Shown: one piece after another, positions 12,913 through 57,246 of the stretch | How the letters are laid out: every line of letters starts with the position of its first letter | Position numbering within the stretch: position 1 is the stretch's first letter | Origin: Ectocarpus siliculosus | Taxonomy: Eukaryota; Sar; Phaeophyceae; Ectocarpales; Ectocarpaceae | DNA length: 64,000 nt | Reading direction: 5' to 3' | Assembly: GCA_000310025.1 (NCBI GenBank) | Contig: FN649741.1 | Location: 1,229,474 to 1,293,473, forward strand | Position numbers and translations under genes: made by a program | Notes under the pieces: generated by a model | The model's database searches: none | Told to the model about the DNA's origin: nothing | Seen by the model: the letters and a program-made list of their open reading frames with translations, nothing else

Positions 12913-15900
12913 CTTGACGATAACAACAGGTGCTCGGTGCAGAGGCCTACACTAAAACCTATATCGTCGCCGTGGGGGTACCCCATAGACAAACGAGCCT
13001 CGCCCAAAGTAAGAGGTTGTTTATTGAGGGTCCTAACTGCAGCGTATGCAAGGAAGTAAGCACAAGATGCCGAACACCCTTAGCAGGATGCTGCGCATCT
13101 TCCATGCGACCCGCCGAATACCTCTCGGCGCTTCGCGCTTGGTGAATACCTCTCGGCACTTCGCGCCTGGTCCGGTGAGAACTCGGCGTGCTCCGTCCAG
13201 GCCTTGTAGGGATGCGAGGTCAACGATCTTACGACTACGCTTGGTGATGTGAGAGCCTGGTCCGGTAAGAACCCCGCGGTCCCAGCTTTGTAGGGATGCG
13301 AGGTCAATGGTCTAACGACTACGGCATGCACAACTATGAGTACAGCCCTCAACTGTAGCGGGGACAACTTTGCAAACAACTGAGGCGCCACAAACAACAA
13401 TGTCGAACCACATTTTTTCCCGACCAATGTTGTTTTTGGCTCTTCCCAACAATTGTTGCAATGGGCAAAGACCGAAACTCTTTCTGTTTTTCATCACATT
13501 TGATCAGCGCCCCTCGGCACTACAGCTCCGTTCCGTCGGAAACAAAAAAAACAAAAGCAGAAGCCCGACCGAGAAAAACGCAACGGCGGGTTTGCCTTTG
13601 AGGAAAAAATAAAAAGACTAAAAATGTGGGGAAACGGGTCGATTGTAGTGGGCCTGACGCTGTATTGCATCCCCAAACCTGAAAAATAAAAAATACCCAC
13701 AACAAAAACAAGCAACACCCCAAACCCAATAATCTGTATCCATATATCTCTATTGGACTCCCGACAACCGTTTTTTCTCGGCAACTAAGAAACCGTTGTT
13801 TCTCGACAACGTAGAGACAAAACAAATGCGATCCGGAGATATAAAAAAAAAAACACGTGGACAAACTACCAACTCCACGGTATGGGATGTACTACAAATC
13901 GAATGCTTGATCGATTCGGATCTTTCTTCTCACCCTGACAATGGGGTTGATCTCGCGGATGTCTGAAACCGTGAACTCGAAGCCGACCGGGGAGTCGGCG
14001 TAGAAGTGGGCCTTGGTGTCTTCCGTAAGCACCACTCCCTACATACAGAGAGACAGGGGAGACAGGGTGACAGACAGAGAGACAGAAAGACAAGGACAAA
14101 GAGACAGAGAGACAGGGGGACAGAGAAACAGGGAGACAGAGAAACACGAAGACAGAGAAACAGGGAGACAGAGAGACAGTCAGACTAGACACACCCGCGA
14201 CGGCAAGGAAACATCCGGCTTTGCTAGGGCAGGTCAGGCACTCGTTCGTGTCAACAAGGGTCACCGCGAAGCTTGTTGGTCACAAGGGGCGCCAACAAAC
14301 ACGGCTGTTTGATCTCTCATGCATCAGGTAAAGCCCCTCTCCCTCCGACTGCTCATAATTTATCTGCCGCTCGCGAGGGTACCGTAAGAGGCGGAGAGAT
14401 GGCATCCCCCCTACGCCGATATTCAAAAAGTCCAATTGCTCCTGTCAACCTCGGGGCAATCAAAACTCGCCTGCATCTCCGTCAGCTTGAAGACGCAGTC
14501 CTGGAGGACATACGGGTCCCGGCTGATCTTCTGGACGTCTCTCCTCTCCGACGTCGTGAGGGACACAAGCCCGAACCTCTGCAGCACCCCGGTCAACACC
14601 TTGTGGTTGTGTTGGTGTTGACAGTGGTGGTGTTGGTGGTCACGAGCATGCGTCAACACAAGAGAGAGAATGAAAAAGGGGGCATGGCATCGGAAGCGGG
14701 CGTGAGGTAAGACAAAAAAGCAATGCAAGGCCGCGTGCATGCCTACCCACCAAGTAACACGAACTCGGCAACAACGGAGCAAGCAGACGCTTGATGGTGG
14801 GCGGTGTTGACTCTCCTCCATCGAGCCTACGACGATAAGCGTAGTTTGTGTCCCCTCAAGCTCTCTCGCGTGACTTCCGATTTTTGCGTCAGTCCCGGCC
14901 TTGAAGGCGCACGAGGGCCTCGGTTACGTACGATACCACACACCCTAACCCCCCGAATCTTGCGTTCCTATCCCTGGGCTAACACTACCCCGGACCCTTC
15001 ACCGAACCTGATCATACCCTTACCTTTTCCTTCCAGAACGTGGCGGAGTTGATGTGGGCTCCGGTCACCAGGTTGAGGAATCTCACCACTATTTCATCCA
15101 GTACGAAGACAGGGCGGTTACGCTTAGGCTTAGGCTTGAGCTTAGACTCCGGAGGCCTAAGCTTACAATCAGGAGGCTTGTCTTACGCTTACGCTCAGAG
15201 GGCCTAGGGTTAGCCTGGGGGTCATCGTTCAGGTTGAGGAAACACATATCTGTTCAATCCAACACGAAGACGAAGCGGCTTAGACCCAAGAGGCTTAGGG
15301 ATAGTCTGGGGGTCATATGTACTCCGTCCAGGTTGAGGAAACACAAATCTGTTCCATCTAACACGAAGACAAGGCGGTTAGGCTTAGGCCTAGGCTTGAC
15401 GACTCCATCCCGAATGGAGGGCGGAGACCTGCCGTGTATATACAACGATGTTTCTCCCTCCACTACTGCTGTCGTTCACTCTCAAGAACTTCCTAAATAG
15501 GAGTTTTAAACAGAGCGCTATTTCCCCAAAGTTTTGGAACTGTTTCCAAATTAAGGAACTGTGCGAAGCTAGTTCGAAGGAAATCAAAACATTCTGAAAT
15601 TTTCCAAAATTTGGAAGCTACCGTGCCAATTTTTCTGGGCCCATTGCATACTCAATTTCATTTTTTTGGAAAAGTTTTTTTCGAAGACTTGCAACAATGA
15701 GAAATTTGGAAACATCAGTCACGTTTAAAACACCCCTTAGCCCGAGGCTCGCTACAGAGTCCTTTGTGGGGTGTAGCCCAACAGACAATATTGATGTGTG
15801 GTGAAGCTGTAATTAAGCTACCCTACATTGCAACTGGATGTATTAACACCCAGACAGGCGTCTCACCAAGCATGCGCATGCCCTGCTCGCTCGTTGACTT

Positions 15901-18900: not shown

Positions 18901-21781
18901 GGATAGACAGGAGAAGACGTTAGCTGCACTGGGGCACAGGAAGTGGGTTGAAAAGGCGAGAAATGATATCGGTAGGATGGATAAACTAGGGACGACATTT
19001 TTGAGCCACCTTTGGCAAAGTAGGAAGGAACGATTGGCCATCGGTGATCGATCCTGTGGGAACAATGCTCCGTCCTCTCTAGAACGCGTGGTCAATGGTC
19101 TTAACCGCTAAGGCATGCAAAGCATAAGAGTACCCTCCCCCCCACCCCCTTTACTGGGATATTTCTGCAATACTCCGGTATGGCAATCTGTCCACTTCAG
19201 TCAGTTCCTCTTGTACCTCCTGGTTTCGCTCGGCTCGGTCGATACTGCCCTTGGTGAAGAAGGTCAAGGCATCGGGGGAAAGGGGGATGAAGCGATACCC
19301 GTCCGCTGAATCATCGGAAGCCGTCACTGCCGCAGGCTAAGGTAGCAAAGGTCGGGAGGCCAGAGCAGCAGAAGCAGCAGCGGCAGCGGCAGCGGCAGCG
19401 GTGGAAGAACAGAAAGGTGGGACAGATCTCAGCTCAAATGGAGTAGGAACGCGGACAGCTTAGGGTAGGACAGTTTGGAGACAAATCTTTGACCTGACCC
19501 TGAAACTTCCTGATGAAAGCTCGGCGTCAGGATGGTACTGGGGACAAAGCACGCGTGCACTGCCGGGAAACACGCAGCAGCTGCAGGAGGAGGGGACACC
19601 CCCTACAGAACAACAAGGCGACAGCGACAACAACCACGACGACGACGGCATCAGCCGCCGCAACAAGAACAAGAACAAGAACAAGAACAAGAACAAGAAC
19701 AAGAACCAGAACAGAACAACTACAACAATACCAGTAACAGCCACAAACAACCACACAACCCGCACTTGACCTGTTGGTCACCGTCGTCAGGTTCAGGTTC
19801 AGGGTCGGGGTAGAACCGGTAGGACACGTTGGCCCGGCCCCTGGTCATATCCTCCAGTACCACTCCCCGTCCGGCGCCCCCCCCGACTGTGACACAAGGC
19901 CACGAGAGCAGGGGGAGCCGGAGGACGAGATAGCGGGGCGGGAAGGGCACATGGACAGCCCGGAAGCGAGAGGAGGGAGGGACAAGGTATTTTCGGCTGC
20001 TTTGCTAGCTGTTGGTGTTGCTGGCTGGACGTTCAAACCCGATTAGGGCCGCACGAACCATCGCACCCCCCCATCAAGACCGATTTTCAAAGCTCGAAAC
20101 TTTTCCAGCGCAACCACCCCGTTCGGCATTGGAACCCACTTTGGTTGTGGAGGCAATCGAGCGGTGAAAGTCGGTCTAGCGTGAGTGCGATTCCTACGGC
20201 ACCTGTCCCAACGCCGCGCCCTTACCTTGGACGGGAGAGGCGCCGACGCAACTTCCTACGAAGTCCCAGGAGTAGTCACCCAGATCGCACAAAAAAAACA
20301 GTTTCGGGCCATGAAAGTCCTTGTTTGCGACTTCTTGCGCTACGGCAAGCCAGACCTATCGGAGATAGAGGTAAAGATATTCTTCTGGTGAACTGCTATT
20401 GTTCGGTGTTTGGCAATAGAGACCAAATCTACCCATCGAACAAGGCCGTAAGTACTGCGCGATTTGTCTATACTTGACAACCAACCTTGTTAGAGCTACC
20501 AGTACTAACGTCACATTGATGATCACTAATCTTCTTCGGCTTTCCAAAGCGAAATTAGCGAACCGAAACGAACGTAATAGAGGTGAAATCAACGGAGGAA
20601 TCTCGTCCCAATCACACCTCCCAAACGAGCCCATACAATAATATAAGTGAGCTCTGTTGTGGAATCACGTCCCGACCATATCCCCCTAACTCAAACAAAC
20701 ACGAGCCATGGCACAATTACTTCCCGAGAGCCAAAATTGTGTCTTACCTCAGGGCACACACAAAAAAAAAATCTGCACAAATGAATGCCACCAGAAAGAG
20801 GTGGCAAACTCGAAGTTCGATTGGACCAATAACATATTTTGACCCCTACCCCTTGACGCTAACCCACCGTTGCCCTCGCTCCCTGTTCCGCCTCCTCCGA
20901 AGAGTATCGATTGACCGGTTTGCCCTTGCCCCTGTCGGCGGAAAACGACACAAAAATCGAGCAACGCGTTCGTTAGAGGAGGTTAGTCATTTTCCTTCCG
21001 CGGCACGGGCGGCATTCTCACTGCGTGGTGGGGCATAGTCGGCAAATGCGGGGAGTAAAAAAAAAAGGCTCCGAGAAGAAAAAAATGTGCGTCGTGTGAA
21101 CGGCCTTGAACATGAACAAACATCACCACCGCTAACATTGTCACGAACACCATCATACACATCACGAACGCCATAATCACGATCATCTACAACTTCAACA
21201 ACATACCCACAAGACACGTGTCATTCATACCGCGCTGTATCAACATCAAGAAAACTAGCAGGGGACGAGACACGCCCTGTTCGTGAAATCCCAGGCAAGG
21301 AACGACTACGTTCCCGGAGATGGTCAATCGAACACGTTCGTACATCTACTTGTAACGGACGCAAGACTTACGTGGTTGTCTGGGTACACCTGCAGACAGC
21401 GAACGCAAGTGCGCACGGGGGGGGTGGAGGTGGCGGGTCAAAAACGCAACGATTGGGTCAAAACAAGCTGCATTAGATGGCATCGGCAACGCCAAGAAAG
21501 GGCGTCATGTTTTCCCTCCTCTTTCGATCCGAAGAAAGAGCGTCTCTGGAACCTGCAAGCAAAGGACTACCATCAGTACTACTTCTGTGCACCAAATGAA
21601 GGCAAGCACCGTATTTTCTGGGGTTCATTTTCATTTTGTTTATATTTTTTCAGAAGGTGTACCCCCCCTTGGGGACAGTTGGCTTGTGACCACGAAAGGC
21701 GTCCGCGTCAGTTGAACCAGTACAGAAAGTACAGACATTAGAAGGTACTGAGCGGAGATCCGAACGGTTCTTAATGTGAAG

Positions 21782-21815
<34 letters not shown>

Positions 21816-24494: not shown

Positions 24495-27400
24495 CAAAAT
24501 CCGGTCTGTGTCCAAGAACCCGTTAATTTATATTTGATTCATGACACCATACCGAGGATCATCTAATCAAAGAATTTGGCGATAGCAGCTTCTCGCTAGT
24601 TGTCGGAGCGAAAAAAGGAAGTGATCTCTTGTGCGCGAACAGATTTCCAGACATTATATTTGTCTGATCGCTGTTTTATTTTCCCGTCCGCACCTGCTCA
24701 GGCAACGACGAATTTTCATGGCCACAACGCCTAACCCCCCCCCCGAAGGACGTTTTTCTACAAAAGAGAAAGGGGGGGGCGAACGACAAGGAATAACATA
24801 CGGAAAACAACACACCGGAATAAATGCGAGCGAAACGCCAGGTTGATTTGTACCGTCCAACCTGTTTGGGCACAGTAAATGTGAAACTCTTTGCCAGAAA
24901 CACGGGTCTGGATACAGAGTAAAAGAAATTGTACGTGGTTCGCTTTTTTCCGGGGTGGGGGGAAGACACGCTAGACCGAATCTACGGGTGGGTTTCGCCG
25001 ATTGGACGCACAACTCAATCAGTACCTGTTTGGGGTTTACGCAACGAAGCGAAGACCACGTGTTGCCCAGAAGATAGCAGAACCACTGGCAGATCACGCG
25101 ACATCACCGTAGATTGCGTAAGACACCACACCCCCTGGACCGATTTTCCAAGTGCAATTGCTCCCCGAGGAAGGGGACGCCAAAAAATACCAATACGTGT
25201 TTCGGAAAGCTCTCGACGAGACAGTTCCAACGCTACCACTTTCGGCTCCCTTACTGCTCTTCCTTGCCGAGTAATCCAGCGGTACAGAGGGTGTGGTATC
25301 TTACGCAACCTTTGGTATTTCTTTCACTGATCGTTCTTCGGCGACAAAAACATAAGGCCAGACTCGTTACCTGATACTTGATGTTTTTCCTCGCCAGGTT
25401 GTGCCTGTCTAACGGGACCATAGCCGACAAGATGATGCCTTTCTTGGGGGGGTAGTAGATGTGAACATACACGGGGGTCCTGTCGCTGAGGATGTCCGAC
25501 AGGTGGTCCACCTGGTAAAAAGTGGGCAACCATGGGAAGCGTCCCCGTCAGTTGGACCGGACGGATGTTTTGAGGAGAGACCGGAACGGTATTAATTGTG
25601 AAGACAACAACACGTACTGGGGGCGGGCGGGGGGGGGGGGGTATTTTGGAGGGGCGTCCCGCAGGAGTGTTGCCTTATACCAGGCGATTTTGAACGCATG
25701 AAGTCACGGAAGTACTGGGGGGGGATTTCCGCATTATTCAGGGGGAGAAACAGCCTTCGATGCATTTGTCGCGTCACGCTTTTTCACCGGCACTATTGCG
25801 GGCATGCGGCACTGTAGCGGGCATCCGCCAGGACGGTGTACCTAGCCCCCTTTCAAGCTTGGGTGAATCACGTGGGGACTCCGCCGCCCACGAGGCGGGG
25901 GGAGTGAATATTTTATTTGCCACAATTAGTTTGAACATCGAGGAGTTTGTATCCGTGATGTTACATACCGGTGTGCAACAGTTGTGGACGGGTAAGGCAG
26001 GCAATTCACGCCATGCTCACGGTTCTTCTGGTGGCCACGGCGGTGATGATGACAATATCATGATCAACAACAACCCAGACTGTGTAGCAGCAACAACACC
26101 AACAAAGAAGCGAATATTTCAGATGGATCCTACCAAAGGGGGGAGGAGTCTGAAATTGGTGTTTATTGGAGTTGGTAGAAGGAGTGGGCATTTATATTAT
26201 ATGGCAAAGAGTATGTCTGCGTGCTTGCAGGAGAGGAGGCATGCGCACCGAGATAAGGCAGCTGCCCGCAGGACATTCCGTTTGCGCCCGATCACGTTGG
26301 AGCATCAGCAGTGCTGGAGCACAGGGACTGCTAGACGTACGATTGGACAACACTCTGCCAGCTGCTGGTTTAGGACATTCTGTTGCGGGAGCTAGTGTTG
26401 TCGTCTTTTCCGACGGGGCGGAGGCCACTACCGCTGGGCGGGAGGAGTCGCTACGTCGAGCCTGGAACACATCGACTTCGCTTGGTACGTGCGACTGACT
26501 GCGATGTGGCGTGTTATCCCAGCAGCATCACAGCGAGAGCTGGCTTTCGCAGACAGCAGTTAGTGCACACAATGACAAATGTTGTTATTGTATACGGCAC
26601 ACGGGGGCCGAGGCTGTAAGGATTCACGTGCCATATGTGAAGTGGCGGGCGGGTGTGGGCATGCTGTATCGATGTTGTTGACTGCTGTTGGGCGTGTTCG
26701 GAAAGCGCGTCCGAAGAAAGAAGCCACCGGTTACTGGTGTGACTGCGGTGTGTGCGCGGGTGTGCATGCGGTAGGCGCCGCGACTCCCTCGATTCGTTCG
26801 CTTGCGCGGGGTACCGGCCGAGTTTGCATCATGCGACAGCAGATATCATCGAGCATGTCCGAAGCACCCGATCACTTCTGGTGTGCTGAGTGATGGTCAC
26901 ATAGAGCGGTACGAGCGCGTGTTCGCGTTCCTATGTATGCATACAGCATATATTTATGTCTCACCGACAATGTGGTTAGGTGGCCGCGGTGCGTGTGCTG
27001 GTGTGCGCGGGAGAGGCGCCGCGGCCGGTTATGGGTGTCGCATTACAGGGCACCGTGCCGAAGGTGGAATTCGGGGTGCTGCGTGCGGTTATGATGTGAC
27101 TGCGGTCCCAATTTTTAAATTTCAACGCATCGACTATGAGAATGATGCGAAAGACAGGACCGCATCGAAAACGCGTTGTGCTTTCCGGTCCGTAGTGTCA
27201 GAGACACTATGGTGTGATTATCAGAAATACTGATCGCGAGACGAGACACATCGTCTGGGGGTGTTTGTCGCAGTGCGACAAGGGTGGTGGATTGGTGACA
27301 CACAAAACTGCCGTCCAAACCCAGTGCCAAACCCACACACAAAAACAAATCTATTTTCGGTTGTTATTGCTGCTTGTCATGTCGTGTACACTTGATGGAC

Positions 27401-30400: not shown

Positions 30401-33400
30401 TCACATACGAGGGATGGAGGGATGGGTATGCAAGAAACCATAGCTGGACGGAGCCAAAACACAAACGCGCTCGTGGAAAGTCGACACATGTACTGGTGGA
30501 CATGATCGCGCAACTTATTGGCCTACGCCCGGTGATGTCTAGGCACAGTGGTTCACATCTGATAAGGGGAGCATGTGGTTCATTGCACACCATGATGGCG
30601 TGTCGTCTGGGGACGAGTCGTGGTTGTCAGGAGCCGGCCGCCAGATGTATGACATATATGTTGCTAATAGCGTGCCTACGAGACGGAAGGCGGCCGTCAT
30701 GACACACGATGTATCTTGCAATGACCGGTCTGGTACACGCGACTGGTGGGTCGTCGTGCACTGCTTGAGGGGTACATGGTCCGACTGCACCGGCTATTAC
30801 ACGAGCGAGGAGATGTTACTGTGCGCGCTGGTAGGCAGGTGTATACCGTGACGCGTTTACTACATCATCGTTCTGACGTCCCCCATATATAATTTTGTCC
30901 TTGTGTCTTCATACCCAATTGTTCGCCCGTGATCAGGATATTGATCGGTCATCGGGGGGCCGTCGTCGGGGGACGGGGGTATGAGTCGGGACGGGGACGT
31001 CTCGGATGAGTCCGTGATTGGCCGCGAGGAGTACCAGGCGGAAAGGCAGGACAGCGCTAACGAACGGGCCATTATTAGCGCGTCGGTTGAGGACCTCAAA
31101 ACCGACATGGCGGCGAGGTTCGAGGAGGCGCTGGCGGCCGTACGCGCTCGGAGCGACGGGTCTGCGGCGGGTGGTGCTGCCGGGGTTGCGCCAGCGCCGA
31201 TGTATGGGGGCGCGGGGGCGCAGGGCTCCTCGTCCGATGCAGTCGTTACCGAGCTAGGACGTAGAGCCACGGACCATGTTGAGGTCCCCTTGCCTAGCGA
31301 ACGGGATACGCCACCCCCCTTTCCCCCTGGGTGTCGCATTCCCCCCGGTTCAGGAGGCGGTCGTTCCGACTCGTTTTTCGTGAAGCCCTATGTAGACGGT
31401 GGTATCCTTGTCGAAGTCATGTGGACCCCGACTGGCGCACGGTGTAAAGTGTCGTCCGCGTCGTGTGAATCGGACCATTTCCGTGTGTTTGGCGCGCGAG
31501 GGCCTGGGGACCCCCCCCCCTGTTGTCTCCGCATAAACTCTCTTCGTGGCAAACACGATTGTGTGTGCTCGGGTGGGACATTGATACAGTAGCTATGACG
31601 ATTTCGGTTCCCGCAGACAAGCTGGCACGTCTGCGGGCGCAATCCGCGAGTGGCCCCCCAAGCGCCACTGTGCTTCTGAGCCCGAGTTGCGGGGGGTGAT
31701 TGGTTCGCTGTTGCATATATGTGAAGTCGTGCGGCCTGGTAAATACTTTGTTCGCCGTGTGTTCAACCAGTTGGGGCTCCCGCCGGTGCAATTGACAGCC
31801 CGGGGGCAGGAGCGGACACGGATAGGTCCCGAGTTTCATGCAGAGATGCAGTTTTGGCGTCTGATGGTAGACGGGGGCTTGGGGTCGCCGTCGCGGGTGT
31901 TAACAGCCCCACTTGTTAATTTGTTTGTTTTTTCGATCAACCATATTCGTGTCTTTTGTGGTCAGATGCATCTGGTGATGCCATGGGGGGGTATTTCTTG
32001 CATGCTGAATTCCGTTCGGGAGTATAATGGTGTTTCGAATTCAGTCAGGACGTGCGGGAGCGGTTTCGCCAGCAGGCTGAGGTCTTGGACCCGGAGGTCT
32101 CCGATATTTGTACCGGCGTTTTAGCTGCGAGTACGTCCGCGAGTCAGTTGCGCAGTCGTCTCGAAGAACTTACAGGTCGGGTTGGCGGGCTTAGTGTGTT
32201 TTTCTCGGGTTGATTAGCGAGTCGGTGTACCTCTCGGGGGAGGCGGACGATACGGTGCTGGGACAAGCACTCCTGGAATTTGTGGCGTGGTGTTGTGCAG
32301 GTAAGGGTAACGTTGCACCGACCATTTCCGGCAAGCTCGCCGCTGTACAGTATTTTCATCGCGTCGATAGGCAGGTCTATGCTTGGCGTTGTCGTATTTT
32401 CTGGTGGCGCGTTCGGATGTGATTTTTGCCACGATGTCGGGACACTGCCACCAGGTGCATTGTTTGCGGCGGAGCGACGTCGAGTTTTTCGACGGGGAGC
32501 ACGTGTTAACCCCGTTGCACTGGCACAAGGCTACGGGTGTCCGGGTTCGGTTTCGTGGCCACAAGGGAGATCAGTCGGAATGGGGGCGTACGTTACACGA
32601 GTGCGCGATGTCGCACGAGGTCCGAGTTCTCAGATAGGCGCCGGTGGCGGTGCCGTGGCGGTGTTGGTGGAATTGATGGCGTGCCATCTTGCTTTGCCTG
32701 AGAACGCCCCTCTGTGCTCGTTTCGTTGCAGTAGGAGCAGGTCGGTTAAGGTTTGGGGATATTCCAAAGCTCTTAGCGCCCTTCGCCAGATTGTGGAGAA
32801 GGTAGGTGGCGACCCGAGACAGGTTGGCTTGCATTCATTGAGGATCGGGGCCGCCACCACGTTGGCAGCGGGAGGAGACGTACCGGATAGAATTATACAG
32901 AGAGAGGGTAGATGGAAGGAAGGGTCCGGTACGTACAAGATATATACTCGGGACAATATGGTGGACGTAGACATAGTATCCCGTAAACTAGCAAAGGGAT
33001 GGAAGGAGCAGAAGGAGGGTTAGCATATACGAAGGTACGGGCAAGGGAGACAGAATGCCGTCCCACTAAACGTCGATGTTGGTGGATGTCAATGGTAGAG
33101 TACCATTGGGGGTCTCGGTATACTGAGACGACATTTTGTTAGGCCCAGCCAGTTGACATGAAAGGAAACTTGGATTCTGGATGAGAGAGGGAAGCGACCG
33201 GTGTCGCCCCCTCGTTATTTGCCAGAGAGTTACCTTTCAGACTTCGTGGAAAATAATAATAATAATGACACTTCGGAAAATACAATAAAGCGAATATTTC
33301 AGATGGATCCTACCAAAGGGGGGAGGAGTCTGAAATTGGTGTTTATTGGAGTTGGTAGAAGGAGTGGGCATTTATATTATATGGCAAAGAGTATGTCTGC

Positions 33401-36400
33401 GTGCTTGCAGGAGAGGAGGCATGCGCACCGAGATAAGGCAGCTGCCCGCAGGACATTCCGTTTGCGCCCGATCACGTTGGAGCATCAGCAGTGCTGGAGC
33501 ACAGGGACTGCTAGACGTACGATTGGACAACACTCTGCCAGCTGCTGGTTTAGGACATTCTGTTGCGGGAGCTAGTGTTGTCGTCTTCCCACCCACGCCA
33601 CCCTCAAAAAAAAATTTCCGAAAGAGGGGGGGGGGGGGGGGGCGATAACAGGGGGTATGTATACCGGGAAGATATGTAGTAGACATGTCGATTTATGATT
33701 GCTATTATTCCACGGGGAACTGGGTGATGAGGGTCTGATTGGTGGATGTGGATGTCAATGGTAGAGTACCATTGGGGGTCTCGGTATACTGAGACGACAT
33801 TTTGTTAGGCCCAGCCAGTTGACATGAAAGGAAACTTGGATTCTGGATGAGAGAGGGAAGCGACCGGTGTCGCCCCCTCGTTATTTGCCAGAGAGTTACC
33901 TTTCAGACTTCGTGGAAAATAATAATAATAATGACACTTCGGAAAATACAATAAAGCCACAGTTAACAACAACGACGTCAACATTGAAGCAAAACAAAAA
34001 TTAAGGAAACAGCTACAATTACCCAACGATGACAACAATATCTTTGGAGAAAACAGCCCCATCGACAACACACCTTTTTCGGGCTCTCTGGTGGGAAGCT
34101 CCGGGCGAAGTCAAGCAGGTAGTGGCTACCGCCTTCACCGACGTGTCCTTCGATGTCGCATGCCGAGTACATTTCCTGCACATCCATTATCATAATCATC
34201 TTCATCAGCGTCATATCTACCATCGACATGGTCATCATTATCGCCATCATCTTCGTCATGATCGTCACAAACATCACTGTCATCACCACCAGCTCACTCA
34301 TTAACCATGCGGCGCATAAACTACAGGCAGTGTGGGTCCGCTTACCTTATCATTGACCCAGTGCGTGCGGAGGTTGAGCTTCTTTGCCACGGCCTTGAGC
34401 TTCTTGGCCAGGTTTTCGCTGTCATTATGAACAGTCCTGCCCGCGTCAGACGACCCGTAGCGAAGGGTTTCCGAGCTCACCGGAAGCACGGCCTGACAAC
34501 AGCAGAAGCAGCAGCAGCAGCAACAACAAGCACAAGATCAACGGCGGGATTCCGAGGTCACCGGAATAACGACTCGACAACAGCAGCAGCAACAACAACA
34601 TCATAAACGCAGGTATTCCGAGCTCACCGGAAGCCCGGCTTGACAACAGCAACGGCAACAACAATAATTACAACAACGATTGCCAGAATGTCAAGTACGT
34701 TCGCCCCGTCTACCCTGGACGCCTGGACCTACCAAGGAAACAAAAATGAAGTTACACCGGTCGCCCCGGTGATCCAGTTGTAACCTCGAAACCGCTAGTG
34801 GCGAAGTCGTGAGTTCGGATCCCCATGGGGGGAGGGGGTGTACTCATAGTCGTGGATGCCGTAGTCGTTAGACCATTGACCTCGCATCCCCACAAAGCCG
34901 GGACGGAGCACGCCGGGTTCTCACCGGACCAGGCTCTCACATCACCAAGCGCGAAGCGCCGTGAGGTATTCGGCGAGTCACATGAATGGTGCGCTGCATC
35001 CTGCTAAGGGTGTTCGGCACCTTGTGCTTACTTCCTTGTGTACGGATGACAGCTGCGCATGACTTCACATATTTTCTTGTCCTTTCACTTCCAGGGGCAG
35101 TTCTAAGCATTGTGTATCTGCGTCGAGGGTGCTTGACCAATTTTAACACAACGTGGTGCGATCATCTCCTTTGCGCGGAGTGAGGGTTCTTGACCCCGCA
35201 CTACATAATCTACTGGACCACCATTATGGTCGCCGCAAAAAAAAAAGCCAAAGGCGAAAAAAAGAGAGAAGCGGTAACCTGGTTGCCGAGCTCACAAAGT
35301 GATCGGCTTATTTTACAACGTCGTTGCCAAGCGACGAAAACCCAACCCCGATGGCAAACACCGAGGGGGGGTCGAATCCCCATGGGGGTGAAAAATTTAC
35401 AACTTCGCACGTAAAGCGAAAGAAAAAAAGATGAAAAGCTCTCGAGAGTACCAAACTTCGAGGTTAGCACCGTCAGCGAGGGAAACGGACGGCTGGACCC
35501 TTCTCGCGATAAAGAAAACAAAATTCAGCACGCACCGCAGGAGGAAGGTGGAGCATGAAAACAAAACATAAAGAAAAAGAAAGCCACGGTGTTTCTCCCT
35601 TCCTGTGTGACCCTGGATGGTTGTAGATGTACGAAAAAGTAAACTGAAAAGTGTAGTACTCCACATACACTGAATAGTGAGGTACACGTCTCACCACGAA
35701 AAACGGGGGGGCTGTCGCCATAGGAAATAGGACGAAAAACGCAACACAACAGGGTACTGATCCCGACTACGGTACGCCCGTGATATCACAGGTCCCGATT
35801 GCGACCCCGGATACCTAACTCAACAAACAAATACGCCCCGCAGTGGTAAAACCAAAGGAGCAAAATCCAGCATAATAGTAATTCCACAAAATGGCACCAT
35901 GGTACAACACCCCGGAACAGGCGGTGGAAGAGGCAAAACACGCCCAGACAACAAAAAATTACAAATAAATGGTACACACCAGACGATGTTGAAAGTTTTA
36001 TTTACAGTTTCACCTGTGCCGTCATTCGGAAGCCCTTGTAGTCGATGAGGCACTGGAGCGCGTACCGCAGCCCGCGAATGCGTGCGTCTAGGTAGTGTGT
36101 CGCGCCTCTCAAGTCGTGCCCCGCTCCTACCAAAAAAGAGTGGTGAGGTGTTTGGGAATGGGTGCTGTTAGGTATTCCAGCAAAGGCTAGGCGTGCCCGC
36201 TAGAGTTCTAGCAAGAGGCAGCAGCAGCATCAGCTCCACTAGCGAAAGGCTGCAACATTCAGCCAGCCAGCTTATGCCGCTGATATGTGAAGCGCTGAGG
36301 CAAGAGGGACAGGGTCAGAACTCTGAAAAACTCGTCCCGTAAAATCGTAAAATCTTCCCCTATTATCTTCCCGTACAACCATCCAGTGAAACCGTCGCGG

Positions 36401-39400
36401 ACAACCGTCCCGTAACTTTTGCGGAAATCGTCCCGTAAAACCTTCCCATAAAACTGTCCCTCAATTCCGTTCCGTACCTTTTGCGGCAGCTTCGTCGTTT
36501 CCGAGGTAGGGCCCCCTCGACCCATCCGCGAGCTTGAACAGAATCCCTCGCCACACGAACTTCATCCCTCCTGCTGACCCCCCGAGGTTCTCGTTGGGCC
36601 TGTTGCGACCATCACCAGCGCGAAAGAAAAATGCCGCCAGGCTTCGATGAGACAAGACAACCCAGGGTCACCGCTGAGATTCCCCAACCCGATTGATTAG
36701 TTGTTTTTTGGTTGTGATGGATGCAATTATGGATACACATCCACCGCTCTGTCTAAATACTGTAGTGCGCGCGAAGCCCTCGAAGAGCAAGATGTGCATG
36801 GTACGAGATCATTCGCAATGTGGTCTCGCTGCGACAGTAGCTCGCTTCAGCGGCCCCAAATGCCCAGGCAAAAAAACATGGCATGGAAGCTGCCTCTCTG
36901 GGCACGAATTGATACCGGTTTCGTGCACCAGGATGAGCAGTGAGGGTACCGTGACGTACGGAGGTTGCGCAGCAACGGGGCCCCGCCGGGGGGAAATTCG
37001 GGGGGGGGGGGTGCGGGCAGCACCCGGTGATGCCGACCCCCGAATCGAGAAAAAAGAGGAAGGATAGGCGTCCCAAGGTGCTGGGCATACCACATACTCT
37101 TGCTTGGCAGTGGCGCCTACATCGCGTACACCAGCAATCGGTGGGGAAATAAATTTTGAACGCTCCATTACTCCACGACGAAGAGGGTGCATTAATCAAG
37201 GGATACGTTTTCGGGGAAGCTCTCGACGAGACCGTTCCAACTACGCCATTTTCGGCGCCGCCAATCTTCGGCTGTGGAGTAATCGGGCTTTGGAAATCAG
37301 TGCAGGGGGTGTGGTGCCTTACGTCACCTACGGTAACCATTCGACTCGCCGAATACCTCCGCGCTTGGTGATGTGCTACTACTGTAGCCTGGTCCTGTGA
37401 AAACCCGGCGTGCTCCGTCCTGGCTTTGTAGGCATGCGAGGTCAATGGTCTAACGACTACGGCATGCAAAGCTATGACTACCCCCCCCGTCTCCGTCGTC
37501 TCGAGGACGCGTGGTCTGACAGGTAATGCATGAAAAACGGGTATACCACCCTCCCCTTCCACCCATGTGTCCATGGGTCAACCGCTAAGGCATGCAAAAC
37601 ATGGGTGTACCCCTCCCCCCCCTCCCCCGTTTTCCTCACTTGATGCTCTTGTGCTTCAAGTCCAGGAAGTACTCCGAGATGATTGTTTTCCCGTAGGTAA
37701 CCGCCGCCGCCTTGAAGTCCCGGTTAACCGTGGTCATGCGCTCCCACTTCCTGTAGCACTGGTCGGGAGTATCTTCCGGGAGATCGAGCGCCGATTGGAA
37801 GAGCTCGTTCCAATTCCCCGTTTCCTAAGGCGTGCAAACAACAAAAAAATGAGGAACAAAAACAATGGAACGTTGGCATCGACAGCAAATATTATTGTTC
37901 AACAAATTTGGTAGCTTTGCCTTCAATTCAACTGTAATATAAAATTGGTTTTAGGCAGGAACTGTTTCTAGGATTTTGGGGAGCCGGTGTTGTTTTCGGC
38001 GTGGCGTGGTGGGATGACTCTCAAGTGGAACGGGGCGCAGCCGGACTTGAAAATTAGCTAGGCAGGGGCAAGAGAAGGCCAGACAAGGTATGGGGCACGT
38101 CTTCCTATGTAAGTACAGCAGTAGGTCCCTGTATACAGCCAGCTGGTGCCAAGCTAGCGATTTGGCGGCCTTACACCAGGCATCCGGCACGCATCAGAGA
38201 ACTAGGCAATATGAATATCCCACCTGTGTGTCACGCGAACATATAGGGCGACCGGCCTTTTTATGCGGCCTCACTACTGGATGACTTTAGGGTTGACTGG
38301 ATCCTTGCAGAACGACAATTATTTCAATGTTAGCTTGGCTGCTTGGCTGCTGTTCCTCACAGTGCGGTTCGCGGGGACCCCCGCTAGACGGTAGGTCTTG
38401 TGTCAGGATACACGCGTGCGCGAGGAAACAGTCTGCCCCCGTCCGATTGTACCGTATGGGAGTCGCGGAAGGGGGGGGTGGTCTCAGCCAAAAATGAGGG
38501 AGGATGTTGACAGCAGCTGCAGGGTCCTAACGCGTAGCTGGAGGGGTTGGTCGAGAGACAACAACATGCTGTGACAAAGCCAAAGAGGGTTAGGTACCCT
38601 TGGCTACATATCTTGTTCTATTGCCTCTCTCAACCAAGTATCCGACGACACAGGAGGGTACAGGATCTAGGGAAACAATGATCAATCCAGCAACATCGAC
38701 ACCCGCTTCCCACACACCCTACTGCCACGCCGCCACCATCCCTCATTGCCACCACCGACCACAAAACAAAACCAACAGCAAGCTGTTCTTGTCGCCCACG
38801 AAAGGTCGGGGTGGGGGGCGGTGGGTGGCACAACAACTTGCTGCGCTGACGTGTCATCCCCCAACCCCGAACCTTCAAGGGAGCTCCAACAAACACCTAC
38901 AAACGGCAGAAGAGCACACCGGGCAAGCGAAGAAACACGCGCGACTCTCTTTCCAAGGACCGACTTCCAATCTAACTACTTTGTCCGTTGCTGAAGACAA
39001 GGAACGGGCAACAACAAGGCCGGGAGCCCGAGATAATATTACAGGAGCAGGCTCACCCATCAACAACCCTAAGCGCCATGAGGTGTTCGGCGAGCTGCAT
39101 CGACGGTGCGCTGCATCCTTCACAAAAAAACTGTCACCGGGTGCCTTGTCTTAGAGGTGTGTGTGTGTTAGCCTGTGTGGCAAACGCGGCAAACGCGCCA
39201 CGACCTCGTAATTTAGCTGACAAGAACGGAGCGCCAACCAACCGCAGGAAACAAGGTCGGGATAAGAGACGCATCAACAATAACCTCCACAAGCCGAGGC
39301 AAAGAAAGAACCCAAGATGGACTTTCCAAACAACCAAAGTTTTTTTATTGATGTTTCTTGACAAGAACATTCCAAAAAGCCAGGGCATTTCTTCTTACAA

Positions 39401-41185: not shown

Positions 41186-41421
41186 AAAGGTACAGTAGAT
41201 GTAAGGTACCACACCCCCTACACTGATTTTCAAAGACCGACATCTCCACAGCCGAAGATCGGTGGCGCCGAACATGGCGTAGTTGGAACAGCCTTGTCGA
41301 GAGCTTCCCCGAAAGCGTATCGCTTGATTAATGCACCCTCTTCGTCGTGGAGTAATCGGGCGTTCAAATCGATGCACGGGGTATGATATCTGACGTCATG
41401 TACGGTATCTGACATGCCAGG
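41186..41421. mobile_element. about 235-bp MITE, complete copy
   Basis: The left end ggtacagtagatgtaaggta ccacacccccta and the inverted right end ggggtatgatatctgacgtc atgtacggtatc are imperfect terminal inverted repeats. The interior (gccgaagatcggtggcgccg, tgattaatgcaccctcttcg) matches 37,157-37,345 in reverse. Confidence 0.68.
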
Positions 41422-51482: not shown

Positions 51483-51935
51483 TTATGTTTCATCCAACCT
51501 GACCGATCGCCCCGTACGGCAACGCACGACAGGTACTATTGTGGTCCACCTTCGCATTTTTTTTGCAGTCGACAGCCTTAGCTCCTTTTCTTCCAGAAAG
51601 CCCGCTTCGAGCACAACCTCAACCACACGTACTTTCGACACGTAAACCGGGGGACTCGGTACCCTGCCGTTTCGTGCGGTTTTAGTAGCTTCGCTCTGGC
51701 GGTATGAGCGGACACCGAGTTCTACGGAACCCCGCTTGTTGTCCAGTTCCCGCCATGCCTTCAACACTTCCTCGCGGGTTTGCCCCGTTATTTTCATACG
51801 TAAGAGCAGTGCAGAGAAGAGATACGAGAGAGAGCGGAACATATATATATCCCTAGCGTAACCGCTGACCCTACGGGTTCCTTCCACGGTCACAGACTCC
51901 CCCCTAAGACCGACCAACTTCTTCATCGGCCGCAT
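51483..51935 (-). CDS. unassigned ORF, 150 aa
   Basis: One uninterrupted frame starts MRPMKKLVGLRGESV, contains a plausible helix ITGQTREEVLKAWRELDNKR and ends TGRSVRLDET. It has no recognised domain, no promoter evidence and no clear codon bias. It could be a relic of a mobile element or chance. It ends 120 bases upstream of the pseudokinase gene's stop on the same strand and does not join to it. Confidence 0.22.
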   Translation of the reverse strand: MRPMKKLVGLRGESVTVEGTRRVSGYARDIYMFRSLSYLFSALLLRMKITGQTREEVLKAWRELDNKRGSVELGVRSYRQSEATKTARNGRVPSPPVYVSKVRVVEVVLEAGFLEEKELRLSTAKKMRRWTTIVPVVRCRTGRSVRLDET

Positions 51936-52062
51936 TCTTTGCCATCTCGCCGGGAGGTGTCGTTGATGCTGGGGCTTTGGGCATTGGAGTGTTGGCGCCG
52001 CTGGCAGGGCTGCCCTTGGTAGCGGTGGCAGCCATAGGCTCTACTGCTCGAGACGGGGGGGG

Positions 52063-55000
52063 TCAGGCTGATGCTGCTTCCGATCTCGATCCTGCGAGGC
52101 CACTGCTGCTACCGCGGGCGTCGTTCGAGCGGGGTGATGATGATGATCGGCTGCCGTCTCCATCCGAGACAGGCGTCGCCGCTGCCTCCCCCGCCACGGC
52201 GAGGGTGGGCTGTATAAGGTCCTCGCACTCAGGGTGGAAGTGCAGGACGTCCTCGAGAATCAACGACCGCAGATTGTGCTTCGTCAGCTCCACCTGTCAC
52301 AATATGACGTAATGACATGCTGAGGCACGGCACGATTTCATGACGTAGAAACGCATTGTTTGGCGTGAGGTGATAGTCACCTGCGGCAAACGGCAGGTAA
52401 CCGAGGGCGCAAAACTGTCCATCAGCCACTCGAGCGAGATTCGTGCCCCTGTCGCACGAAGATGGGGAAGTACGAAAGCGCTCACCTTCGGAGAACGGCA
52501 GGAAGTCGAGGGCGCAAACTTAAACTTTTCATCAATGACACGAGCGAGATCGAATGTCACTAGCACGAAGGTGTGCTGCTGCAGGTCTCACACGCGCGAC
52601 AAATTCGGGAAGTGGCTTGCGCCAAAAAGGCGGGCATCATCGCCATCCCAAACCCCAAAAGCGCAAAAATTGAAACGGTGTTGTCGTGCGTAGAATTTAT
52701 CTCACCGCTTCGATGGGCTTTACGTCCACGGGGATCTCCGCTATCGGCTCCGAGGATACATCGTGCAGTTCCGCTAGATACGGGTGCTCCAGCGCCTCCT
52801 CCGCCGAGATGCGCTCGTTCGGGTCGAGGACGAGCATCCTCGACAACAGGTCCACCGCGTCCGAACTGGCGGTGGGGAACTCGACGCCCAGATTGGAAGG
52901 CGGGGAGTCCGGTAGTGCCAGCATGCACCGCTTTGCCCTTGGGAGAAAGAAGATCGGACAACAGAGAGAGAGAGAGAGAGAGAGAGGGTGAGCAATGAGC
53001 AGCGCTTGGTAGTGCTGGTGTGTGCCAGCCAATGTGCGAACAAAAACCACACAAACACGGGCGACACGCGCAAGCAGACCTCGGCTGGGCTGCGTCCGGA
53101 CAAGCGAGGGTCTGTGTTCGCACATAACGAGAAAATGACGGAAAGTCGCCTACGGTGTGATATATTCGCACAGTAGTGGTCATGATGTGTGCACAAGGAA
53201 AGCCGATGTTGTACGCACAAGGGCAGAACGACTACTTGAACAGAGAGCTACTGCTGCAAGCCGGCTAACAGCTACGCGTCAATTTTGCACCGCGTTTACT
53301 TTGATGCCATACAATACTTGGCCACGCCACGCGGCAGGGGAGCATGGTCGTTGCACAAGATTCGGAGACCCCAACAAAACACGGCACGAGCAAGTTTTCC
53401 AGGAACCGGTCGACACGCCACCAAAAAATCTGTGCGATGCTGGCTAGCGCTGCTCACATCGGACTTGGAAATAAAAGAGGCATGCGGTCATTGTACTCTG
53501 TGCCGTAACTGAGACCGGCCACCGATCGTGTGTGGTGCGACGTGGGTGGTGGCAAGGAATTACCATCTCGTGCTACCTTATTTTTACCTTGGGTTGGTGA
53601 CGAACCAAAGGTCGGGCTCGGTAGGCTTTCCGATGAGCGCAGAGATTCCCGTGAGCACGCCGATGTGGTCGAGGCCTACAAACAGGGGTCTACGCCGCAG
53701 CATCTCAGCGAAGATACACCCCACGCTCCAAAGGTCGACGGACTCGTCGTAGATTTGTGCGGCGAGCAATATCTCCGGTGCACAGTACCACTGGGTCATG
53801 ATCTCTGAAAGACTAATATATTTCGAGAAACAAAGCAAAGCAAACACACCGCAGAGCGTAGCAAGGAAGTGACGTCAAAGGAGACTCCAACAGGCGAAAT
53901 TACCGCGGGGTAGAAACATGCATACAACTTGATGAGGAACGAAGCAAAGAACAGACGAGATCCATCCACCGAGTTCACGAAACGTGGGTTGGTGAGGTCG
54001 AAAAACTCGAAGAAATCCCGGCAACACCAGCGGGAAAAGTCATGCACTATACTATTGTGCGAGTCTAAAAACAGGCGGAAAGGCGAGGACAGGGGGGACC
54101 GCAGCTGCGGAAGGCGGAGGGAACATAGCCAACGAAGCAGCACAAGTGCAAGAAAGATGCAACACCCGGGGAACTCATCATGCCGTCACACTTTTCAAGG
54201 AAAAATTGACAGGTCACTCACAACGGCAGATCGGCCGTGTTGTGCTCGCTTTGCGCTCCCCTCGACAACTCGAAGTCGGAAATTTTTAAGTCGCAGTTCT
54301 GCGTGCAGGTGGTGAAGAGCGACGAGCGGTTGGGAGATATAAAGGAAGGTGGGATTTGGGGTTGGGGAGTCAGAAGCAGGTCCTGCTTGTGTGCGAACAG
54401 GGACCACCGTTGCAAGTTCAACGTTGTAGCGCATCAGCTAATGCACGGGCTATTACCCTTTGCTTCAGCGTGTGTGGACATGGAGTGCCGGAGAAGTAAG
54501 CGCATGAACCGGACCGTGCTCGATACGGGCCCAAAGGTTGAATCGTATTTGTAGGTGTCGGAGTAACGCTTGGGCGGCCTTCTGGCAGGGGCGGCCCTTT
54601 TTAAGGAGAAAGAGACAAGTTTCACTAAGTACGACCGTTGCGGCCAACAAAAAATAAATGACAACTGAAGGGAAACTGGAAGTACACGTTTGACCACGGT
54701 TCGAGAAGCTAGGCTCTTCTAGTGGAGAGTGGTGCACACAGGCCACCGCCGCACACACCGCGTTGAGCATCACCCTCGAAGGCCTGAGGCCCTGGTGGAT
54801 CAAGGAGGCCGAGTGGATGTACTTGACGGCGCACAGGATCTGGTAGAGGAAGTACTGCGTATGCTCGTTCGTGAGGTGCTGTCTGGAATAAATCACACGA
54901 TGCAGGTCGGTTTCCATCAGCTCGGACACAATGTACACGTCCTGTCATTGGAGAAACGACAAGAAAGCCAGAACGCAAGAAGGAGTCAGAGCCCTGAAGA

Positions 55001-57246
55001 GGGCGAAATATCAACACAGCATCGCGGCGGTCCCTTCTTCTGCAACGGACCTGTAGGCAACGGGCACCATGAGAGGGGCGATGTGTCCCCCCTCGCTTGA
55101 CGTCAAGGCTACCCCTTCCGCCACCAAAAGCAACAAAGCGGTGATTTAACTTGGCAGCAGCGTGGCGAGGAAGTCCATAGAGAAATAGTTCACCTTGCTT
55201 GGCACTCACAAGTGAACATGGTCACTTTTCCTCTGCTGTGTCAATGATTTGACATGGACCCTTGCGGAGCACGGCTTAACTTCGCTGCGATACCAAGCGT
55301 AATAATGGGGCGTTGCATACGAACAGACGATATTAGCCCTGCTGTACCAGCAGCAACCATGAGCAATCCTCCGATCGCAACGGTCCGTCCGTTGGTATGC
55401 TCAATCGTTTCGTTAATGACACCGCTGAACCCACATCGAAGTCTTCCACCGAGGGCGGAGGCAGGACGTCGACCACCTTGAGGATGTTCTCGTGGTCCAA
55501 GTTCCGCATGATGCAGATATCCCTAGCGATGCCCTTGGCTTCAGTGAGATCCTCGAACGCTCCGCGATGCTTACTTATCAGCACCTGCACAAGCACGACA
55601 TGAATTGAAACGACAATCATTGTTGAACACGCAGTTGCAAGGCTACCCAGCTTTACATCCCCCATAACATTCGCACGTACCTACCGATTACCGGAATCGC
55701 GGGGTACGACTGACGGCAGTAGGAAAAAAGCTTCTCACGGCGTTTGACGTCAAGCCTCAATATATGTACGGCAACGAGCCTTGGCCGAGTTCTGCTGCCT
55801 ATGTCGCAACGGATAAGTCGCAACGGATAATATACTACTACTAATCCGGAGTATGAAATTCGACGTGTCCTCCCCATAGATCCATAAACCACGACTGCTA
55901 TGGGGTACTCTACTGTATACGCACCTGGTTGTTCGACTGGCGGTCCAACGCACGGACCCCTCGGCCTCCGTACGGCTTAATTATGTCATACCTAACGTCT
56001 AGCTCGAAGGTACTACCGCCTGATACAACACTTCTGTGCAGCAGGTTTTCGCGGTGGATGTCGAATCGCGCAGCACCGAAGGAAGAAGATGGGAAATGAA
56101 CGGGCGTGAAGCGATCATCGACGGAGCGAGGAAGCGCACAAGACGCACGGGACAAAAAACAATTTGAAGTCGGAAGGCAGGGCAACGAAAAAGCAAGAAA
56201 ATCGCCCGTCAAACATCAAACAGGGAGGGAGGGGAGCAGGGACACAGAGAGACAGACAGACAGAGAAACAGAGAGAGAGAGGGAGCAAGGCAGAGAGACT
56301 GGGACACAATCAGCCATGTCGCCCGCACAAACCTGCTGACCAATAACAAGACGCCAGCATCACCCGGTGGGAAACAAGTCTTGATGACCTGGAACGTATT
56401 GCGGTTCGATAGGGGCCAACATGCTGAATGTGCTTTCGAGAAATACCCCTACACTAGACACAATCTTTTTTCGGTCCCCCGACAAGTAAGCGAACGACAC
56501 ACTACCGGGACACTCGCACTCGTGGTCCAAAAGAAATATCCCAGACCGTGAGACGTCCGAGGTCAGGAGTCGAAGCCACGGTGGCGACACTGTGTGCAGA
56601 AGCGGCTGTCCTTGTGTGTACGACACTTGACGCAGAATTGTCGACCAGGGAAATTATCGCTATGAAGGGGCTACAACTGAGAGGATATTCGCACCTGCCT
56701 TCGGCGACGCAAGAATTGAAACCCCGCCGTTTTTTGTTTCGGGGGGTACACCCATGATCTCTGTGTATGGCATATGGTTGTGCGCACAAGGAACACAGCG
56801 TGCCGTCCATCACTCACCAGGGTAGGACACTTCACTATGAACCTCCCGCCAACCAGTTGTTGACTGTCGTGTCTGTGGCCCTCTAGCTCACACCTGGTGT
56901 TCTGGCGTCTTCGACGTGGCGGGCCCCCTTCCTTCATCCGTTGGTTGATCCGCTTGTTCACGGCCGTGAACCAACGATCACGCTCCTCCTTGGTATCGGC
57001 GAACACCTTGAGCACGGTCGCGTTGGAAGCGACTACTTGGAAAGCGTTGGCCGGCGTGGTCAGATGGATGACCGTAGACTTGCCGTCGAGGGCCAGGCGG
57101 CCCTCCGGAATCAAGTTTCCCCGTGCCGAGGAGTAGTACGTTATCACGTCGTCGTCGAGAACAAACCAATATCGTTTCCACTGGACGCCGGCCTTCTTGG
57201 TCAAGTATCCCTCCGCAGTTGACGGCTCGTGGGCAGATGCCTCCAT
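52063..57246 (-). CDS. PH domain-MAP kinase fusion with a dead kinase domain, 519 aa
   Basis: Eight exons close in phase: 57,246-56,894, 56,033-55,925, 55,584-55,435, 54,941-54,759, 54,298-54,222, 53,812-53,588, 52,937-52,706 and 52,293-52,063. Residues 12-105 form a PH domain (EGYLTKKAGVQWKRYWFVLD). The rest is a MAPK fold (YDIIKPYGG, AFEDLTEAK, HENILKVVDVLPPPS, YIVSELMETDLHRVIYS, DLWSVGCIFAEML, SRMLVLDPNERISAEEALEH, C-terminal CHFHPE-like LHFHPE). Catalytic positions are lost. The Gly-loop is shortened (YGGRGVRALDR), the VAIK lysine is Ser (VLISK), HRDLKPSN is HQGLRPSR, DFG is DFE, and the TxY loop is replaced (DLPFLSEIMTQWYCAPE). A Ser/Gly-rich tail follows. It is probably a membrane-lipid-targeted scaffold or decoy in MAPK signalling (inference). 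The open frames and clean splicing argue against a decayed pseudogene. Confidence 0.88.
52380..52570. repeat. tandem duplication in the last intron of the pseudokinase gene
   Basis: aacggcaggtaaccgagggc gcaaa...ctcgagcgagat is repeated about 113 bases further on as aacggcaggaagtcgagggc gcaaac...acgagcgagat. It lies between exons 7 and 8 and has no coding role. Confidence 0.75.
52966..52987 (+). repeat. (GA)n microsatellite
   Basis: Eleven or so GA units lie just upstream of the exon 7 acceptor of the pseudokinase gene and read as a CT tract in gene sense, fitting an extended polypyrimidine tract. A GACAGACAGA run at about 56,245-56,282 sits in intron 1. Confidence 0.85.

Follow-up and report, generated by a model that had tools for sequence, protein, structure and literature searches.

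To our knowledge, mitogen-activated protein kinases (MAPKs) seldom lose catalysis altogether. One case is provided by yeast Mlp1 (also named Kdx1), an inactive duplicate that exists beside the active MAPK Slt2/Mpk1. Passages of two papers describe how Mlp1 and Slt2 both activate Swi4/Swi6 by binding, and how the phosphatase Msg5 binds both proteins via the same motif (PMC9106771, PMC3898958); according to the former, Mlp1 acts when phosphorylated by Mkk1/2 (PMC9106771). We describe here a comparable pair from the brown alga Ectocarpus siliculosus, a putative MAPK pseudokinase with an N-terminal pleckstrin-homology (PH) domain and its motif-complete paralogue. The pseudokinase gene (the window copy) lies within a stretch of 64,000 nucleotides (contig FN649741.1, positions 1,229,474 to 1,293,473), which is called the window below. 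The window copy resembles Mlp1 in being a putatively inactive duplicate of a MAPK, but it differs in lacking any TxY motif and in carrying the PH domain. With Mlp1 as model, non-catalytic binding of shared partners would be expected. A PH-fused pair in one genome, one member motif-complete and the other dead, with identical introns, offers a natural test of the MAPK surfaces that still matter once catalysis is gone, in a host lineage in which complex multicellularity evolved independently.

By sequence, the window copy shares with plant and ERK-type MAPKs (MPK4, MPK6, ERK1/2) the fold, the MAPK insert, the L16 extension and much of the D-motif groove, but unlike these kinases it lacks the catalytic and activation residues and has an N-terminal PH domain. 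In the oomycete Phytophthora infestans, PH domains occur on AGC, CAMK and CMGC kinases (PMC3019232, Table 2), and passages on the kinome count 32 kinases as inactive, including five of the CMGC group, and name neither a PH-MAPK nor a PH-MAPK pseudokinase (PMC3019232). The papers on oomycete PlMAPK10 and PlMAPK2, both of which cite PsMPK7, mention neither a PH domain nor pleckstrin, and no description of such a protein was found among the titles and abstract openings of the papers that searches on brown algal and stramenopile MAPKs listed.

The exons of the window copy were modelled by homology and splice consensus. The introns are of the GT-AG type, with lengths (5' to 3') of 860, 340, 493, 460, 409, 650 and 412 nt, and the exons start in phases 0/2/0/0/0/2/2/0. 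The spliced coding sequence of 1,560 nt encodes 519 residues and a stop. The parts of the gene are as follows:

57246-52063, minus strand: window copy gene, eight exons
56894-57246, minus strand: exon 1, which holds the start codon, the PH domain (residues 12-100) and a linker
55925-56033, minus strand: exon 2, beta1-beta2 and Gly-loop with a four-residue deletion; 109 nt versus 121 nt in the paralogue
55435-55584, minus strand: exon 3, VLISK where the paralogue has VAIKK; alphaC Glu changed to Asp
54759-54941, minus strand: exon 4, hinge, alphaD-alphaE docking groove and catalytic loop HQGLRPSR; 82% identity to the paralogue
54222-54298, minus strand: exon 5, DFE for DFG, and activation loop; TEY Thr changed to Pro by the exon-anchored alignment
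53588-53812, minus strand: exon 6, remaining activation loop (TEY Tyr replaced), APE and alphaF; TAG acceptor
52706-52937, minus strand: exon 7, MAPK insert, C-lobe and CD-type stretch HDVSSEP
52063-52293, minus strand: exon 8, L16-type C-terminal extension, beginning of the low-complexity tail, TGA stop

An earlier note on this DNA had read eight in-phase exons joining a PH domain to a MAPK, and the model bears this out. Both Pfam domains score above their cut-offs, PH at residues 12-100 (E 2.3e-10, 41.4 bits, cut-off 25.1) and Pkinase at residues 145-420 (E 1.6e-45), and no stop codon falls within the PH or kinase parts. The sequence carries the signatures expected of a protein kinase fold, a MAPK insert and a C-terminal L16 extension, and the closest solved chains by sequence are those of plant MPK4 (E 1.4e-89, residues 124-464) and MPK6, followed by ERK2/ERK1. 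Dependence on homology and splice consensus only would leave room for a wrong gene model, in which hidden exons restore the missing motifs, but when the entire window was searched on both strands by tblastn with the paralogue as query, the only matches at E <=1e-4 were the eight modelled exons. Alternative exons that would restore the K, HRD and DFG motifs did not come up in this search, and a wrong model is very improbable.

When the E. siliculosus genome was searched with the spliced protein, one locus besides the window matched six of the eight exons, including that of the PH domain:

G000:C489:24585-32644: paralogue (L001) in the same genome, PH plus MAPK, 656 residues

The remaining two short exons were located within this stretch. 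The paralogue has complete motifs (IGHGAYGVV, VAIKK, REIRLL, HRDLKPSN, DFG and TEY), retains the PH Arg that is changed in the window copy (see below), and has a tail about 120 residues longer. All seven introns agree in position and phase, and 310 of 513 aligned residues are identical. From exon 1 to exon 8 the identities are 48, 50, 58, 82, 64, 62, 65 and 64 percent, so that exon 4, which encodes the hinge and the docking helices, has diverged least, even though it ends in the dead catalytic loop. The two genes are sisters in a tree of nine MAPKs, with moderate support (85/90, which is below the tool's starred level); their protein branch lengths are 0.54 for the window copy and 0.029 for the paralogue, a difference of about 19-fold. 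Because a paralogue with full motifs and seven identical introns exists in the same genome, we read the window copy as an old, diverged duplicate of a catalytic-looking PH-MAPK, introns included. The suggestion that a PH-MAPK fusion had turned into a pseudokinase is thereby well supported.

Two repeats were observed in introns of the paralogue. A dispersed repeat in intron 1 (L001 2219-2366) recurs in the window at 21657-21810, 8376-8511 and 25529-25612, with 73-86% identity. A tRNA-like stretch in intron 2 (L001 4210-4277), perhaps the head of a short interspersed nuclear element, recurs at window 34758-34823 with 78% identity; ARAGORN called no tRNA. Searches with the exon-4 protein were directed at viral and prokaryotic contigs, collections that are uninformative on conservation in brown algae. 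Eighteen stretches of viral contigs matched the pattern and none was a relative, while the 61 stretches of prokaryotic genome contigs included one relative (from a Desulfobacterales metagenome-assembled genome, 33% identity) and no orthologue.

The changes in the kinase domain were assessed by aligning the window copy with its paralogue and with five further MAPKs encoded in this genome (the L002 and L006 models being partial). The ATP-binding Lys is Ser158; HRD reads HQG, with Arg changed to Gln and Asp to Gly255; DLKPSN reads GLRPSR, with Lys changed to Arg257 and Asn to Arg260; and DFG reads DFE, with Glu in place of Gly. The Gly-loop is four residues shorter and its second Gly is changed, and TEY is absent, with ADLPFLSE standing where GDLTEY is expected. 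The alignment at TEY is uncertain, in that the Thr pairs with Leu in the MAPK alignment and with Pro in the exon-anchored alignment. Apart from the second loop Gly, these are the changes that the earlier note had read, and to them are added the change of the alphaC Glu to Asp and of two Arg of the P+1 region to Gln and Cys. The same note's statement that every catalytic motif is lost holds for the most part, but the DFG Asp and Phe, the HRD His, APE and the alphaF Asp are all retained, as is Lys159. If a pseudokinase is taken as a kinase lacking at least one of the ATP-binding Lys, the HRD Asp and the DFG Asp, the window copy has lost the first two and kept the third.

The losses concentrate at the active site. 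When a column was called invariant if identical wherever at least four of the six reference MAPKs were present, 80 columns qualified, of which 21 differ in the window copy. The catalytic and activation positions account for 12 of these changes (out of 16, with four kept), whereas only nine of the 64 other invariant positions are changed; the Fisher p of 5e-6 is descriptive rather than a test, because the residues to be counted as catalytic or activating were chosen with the finding already in view. Some catalysis by an unusual route might be imagined, for example through Lys159 beside the lost Lys, or else nucleotide binding without transfer, given that Lys159 and the DFG Asp are retained. With the HRD Asp, the alphaC Glu, the Asn, the second loop Gly and the DFG Gly all changed, however, such activity is highly unlikely.

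The PH domain was examined by folding exon 1 alone with single-sequence AlphaFold2. The best of five models had a mean confidence (pLDDT) of 80, and the others 71, 52, 48 and 47; the fold comprises seven strands and a C-terminal helix. All of the 50 Foldseek matches listed were PH domains or PH-containing proteins, with template-modelling (TM) scores by query of 0.5-0.65. Together with the Pfam match, these predicted structures indicate that a PH fold is present. Both the fold and the WKRxWF motif are common to cytohesin/Grp1-type PH domains, but the motif reads WKRYWF in the window copy, as opposed to WKRRWF in the paralogue, cytohesin-2 and cytohesin-3/Grp1, so that Tyr replaces the Arg of K-x-R in the basic phosphoinositide motif. 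This Arg presumably corresponds to Grp1 R284, Btk R28 and Akt R25, the loss of which abolishes 3-phosphoinositide binding. Because of this replacement, recruitment of the window copy to lipid appears doubtful, and the lipid-directed docking role that had been proposed becomes less likely. A lipid-targeted scaffold, which had been considered as an explanation in its own right, is set back by the same loss.

The docking surface has fared differently in its two parts. Positions and roles in the D-motif groove, the common docking (CD) site and the F-motif pocket were taken from ERK2, in its numbering, and mapped through ERK1. In the D-motif groove and CD site, 12 of 14 positions are as in the paralogue, the second CD Asp being absent from both proteins alike, and in the F-motif pocket three of six are as in the paralogue; both counts are small. 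The F-type (DEF) motifs bind a pocket that is exposed only on activation, as stated in passages of PMC3898958. A retained D-motif groove and a changed F-motif pocket would therefore fit a protein that has lost activation. The docking or scaffold role that the earlier note had offered as an inference is consistent with the conserved D-motif groove, and we too infer it rather than observe it.

Codon analyses point to constraint on the window copy. Pairwise maximum-likelihood fits (own script, GY-type, F3x4) used one genome only, and their ratio of nonsynonymous to synonymous rates (dN/dS, or omega) averages both branches. The estimate, which had been recommended as a check, is a pairwise omega of 0.139 over 460 codons at a dS of about 1.8, and omega=1 is rejected (twice the log-likelihood difference, 2dlnL, 181). 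By segment, omega is 0.188 for the PH part (2dlnL 37), 0.110 for exons 2-5 (74), 0.137 for exons 6-8 (68) and 0.241 for the tail to the stop (10.8), and each segment departs significantly from omega=1. Three-taxon fits with outgroups L005, L002, L006 and L003, whose own branches are saturated, gave an omega of 0.12-0.26 on the window branch and 0.02-0.10 on the paralogue branch across outgroups and segments, and a branch dS of 0.7-1.4 for the window copy depending on outgroup. For the kinase columns, the window branch departs significantly from omega=1 with each outgroup: L005 (333 codons, 2dlnL 10.0), L002 (220, 9.6), L006 (237, 10.4) and L003 (326, 5.1). Third-position GC is 0.75 in the window copy and 0.84 in the paralogue, and the GC of the window is 0.52.

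Neutral decay was also simulated, starting from the paralogue; the target was a sequence with no stop and with at least nine of ten key residues hit, these being residues observed to be changed in the window copy. No trial reached this target, whether at five distances from 0.01 to 0.10 (20,000 trials per distance) or at five further ones from 0.14 to 0.90 (1,000 trials per distance). Because of the pairwise omega, this simulation and the conserved introns, coding constraint, in the sense of purifying selection on average, appears to have been maintained for the greater part of the branch along which catalysis disappeared. The window copy has thus very probably been retained under selection as a pseudokinase for most of that branch.

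Several observations nevertheless weigh against this conclusion, and they are those on which a quite different history would draw, namely that the gene is a recently dead paralogue whose catalytic role was lost, whose selection has ended and whose intact look is due to chance. The kinase omega is higher on the window branch (0.14-0.23) than on the paralogue branch (0.03-0.06) with all four outgroups, although no fit significantly favours unequal branch omegas (largest 2dlnL 3.57). The window branch does not differ significantly from omega=1 in exons 2-5 with L003 (2dlnL 3.79) or in exons 6-8 with L003 (2.1) or L006 (3.2), and it does so barely in exons 6-8 with L005 (4.0). The loss of a ligand residue such as the PH Arg is also expected under general decay. 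The two best arguments for decay, however, are a shifted acceptor and a stop in the tail, at the following places:

53805-53812, minus strand: eight-base interval separating the TAG acceptor of the exon 6 model from a CAG that looks homologous to the paralogue acceptor
51904-52062, minus strand: in-frame remnant of the paralogue tail beyond the TGA; 52 codons, open and similar

Use of the ancestral-looking CAG shifts the frame and gives a 323-residue product, and the full-length protein needs the TAG 8 nt upstream, a type of acceptor found in only one of 30 introns modelled in six other MAPK genes. The TGA at 52063-52065 is a nonsense codon inside the low-complexity tail, because the tail of the paralogue runs on for about another 120 residues and the reading frame of the window past the TGA still resembles it; paralogue residues 450-580 match window 52293-51928 across the stop (tblastn, 52% identity, E 8.6e-25). 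The PH and kinase parts have no stops, but the description of the gene as intact in the earlier note has to be qualified at the exon 6 acceptor and in the tail.

The timing of any such death is narrowly bounded. With no stop in 465 PH and kinase codons, any recent period of neutrality could have spanned at most about 0.075 substitutions per site (P of zero stops 0.063 at 0.07 and 0.040 at 0.08), which is 5-11% of the window branch (dS 1.4-0.7). An end of selection within that last portion is compatible with the data, and the simulation, which rules out purely neutral decay, leaves room for relaxed selection and then a recent loss of function. Against recent death stand this absence of stops over a branch of such length, the concentration of losses in the active site, the conservation of all seven GT-AG introns, the failure of the neutral simulation to yield such an outcome and the constraint on exons 6-8; from this last, pairwise constraint it can be argued that the exon 6 frame has been kept. 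On balance, we regard recent death as unlikely.

The explanation that we favour, to which we give roughly an even chance, is that the window copy is a PH-MAPK duplicate kept as a pseudokinase that serves as a docking decoy or scaffold. It would adopt the fold of an unphosphorylated MAPK, would not be switchable via TEY by a MAPK kinase (MAP2K), and would transfer no phosphate. It would bind D-motif proteins (MAP2K, phosphatase and substrates) that also serve the paralogue, and such binding would lead either to competition with the paralogue or to partners being held together. Since the key PH Arg is Tyr, recruitment by 3-phosphoinositides, which the paralogue may undergo, is not expected, and partners would be held at a site other than that of the paralogue. 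For the docking-competitor or scaffold mechanism taken by itself, the chance seems slightly less than even. An alternative is an allosteric partner that would pair with the PH-MAPK paralogue, or else with its MAP2K, so as to tune activity in the way that some pseudokinases do for active kinases. The paralogue persists in the same genome, and exons 6-8, whose product (C-lobe and L16 region) serves MAPKs as a contact surface, are 62-65% identical to it; the sequence cannot separate this arrangement from docking competition, and we consider an allosteric role rather improbable. Within the favoured explanation of a docking decoy or scaffold, a more specific and quite tentative version, which we would not expect to hold in full, is that of a doubly ligand-blind protein. 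Having lost both PH lipid and kinase ATP as ligands, it would be kept by selection only for its folded docking surface and might antagonise or scaffold a brown algal PH-MAPK pathway constitutively, independently of any signal.

A few other features of the window were recorded. A Pfam scan of ten window open reading frames gave one match only, which was below cut-off. An open reading frame at 32214-33023 (plus strand), without a Pfam match at E 0.01, ends in HSLRIGAATTLAAGG...GRWKEGSGTYKIYTRDN, which looks like the C-terminus of a mobile-element tyrosine recombinase. The EsV-1-7 repeat family, which is expanded in brown algae, has at least 150 matches in the E. siliculosus genome (G000) and none in 14 prokaryotic control genomes, in keeping with a brown algal host. 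Finally, short repeats in or beside other MAPK genes (L002 3474-3559 and L005 5481-5689) recur in the window with 72-91% identity, at these places:

13165-13329: copy of the L002/L005 short repeats
25121-25232: copy of the L002/L005 short repeats
34856-34935: copy of the L002/L005 short repeats
37153-37467: copy of the L002/L005 short repeats
41203-41398: copy of the L002/L005 short repeats

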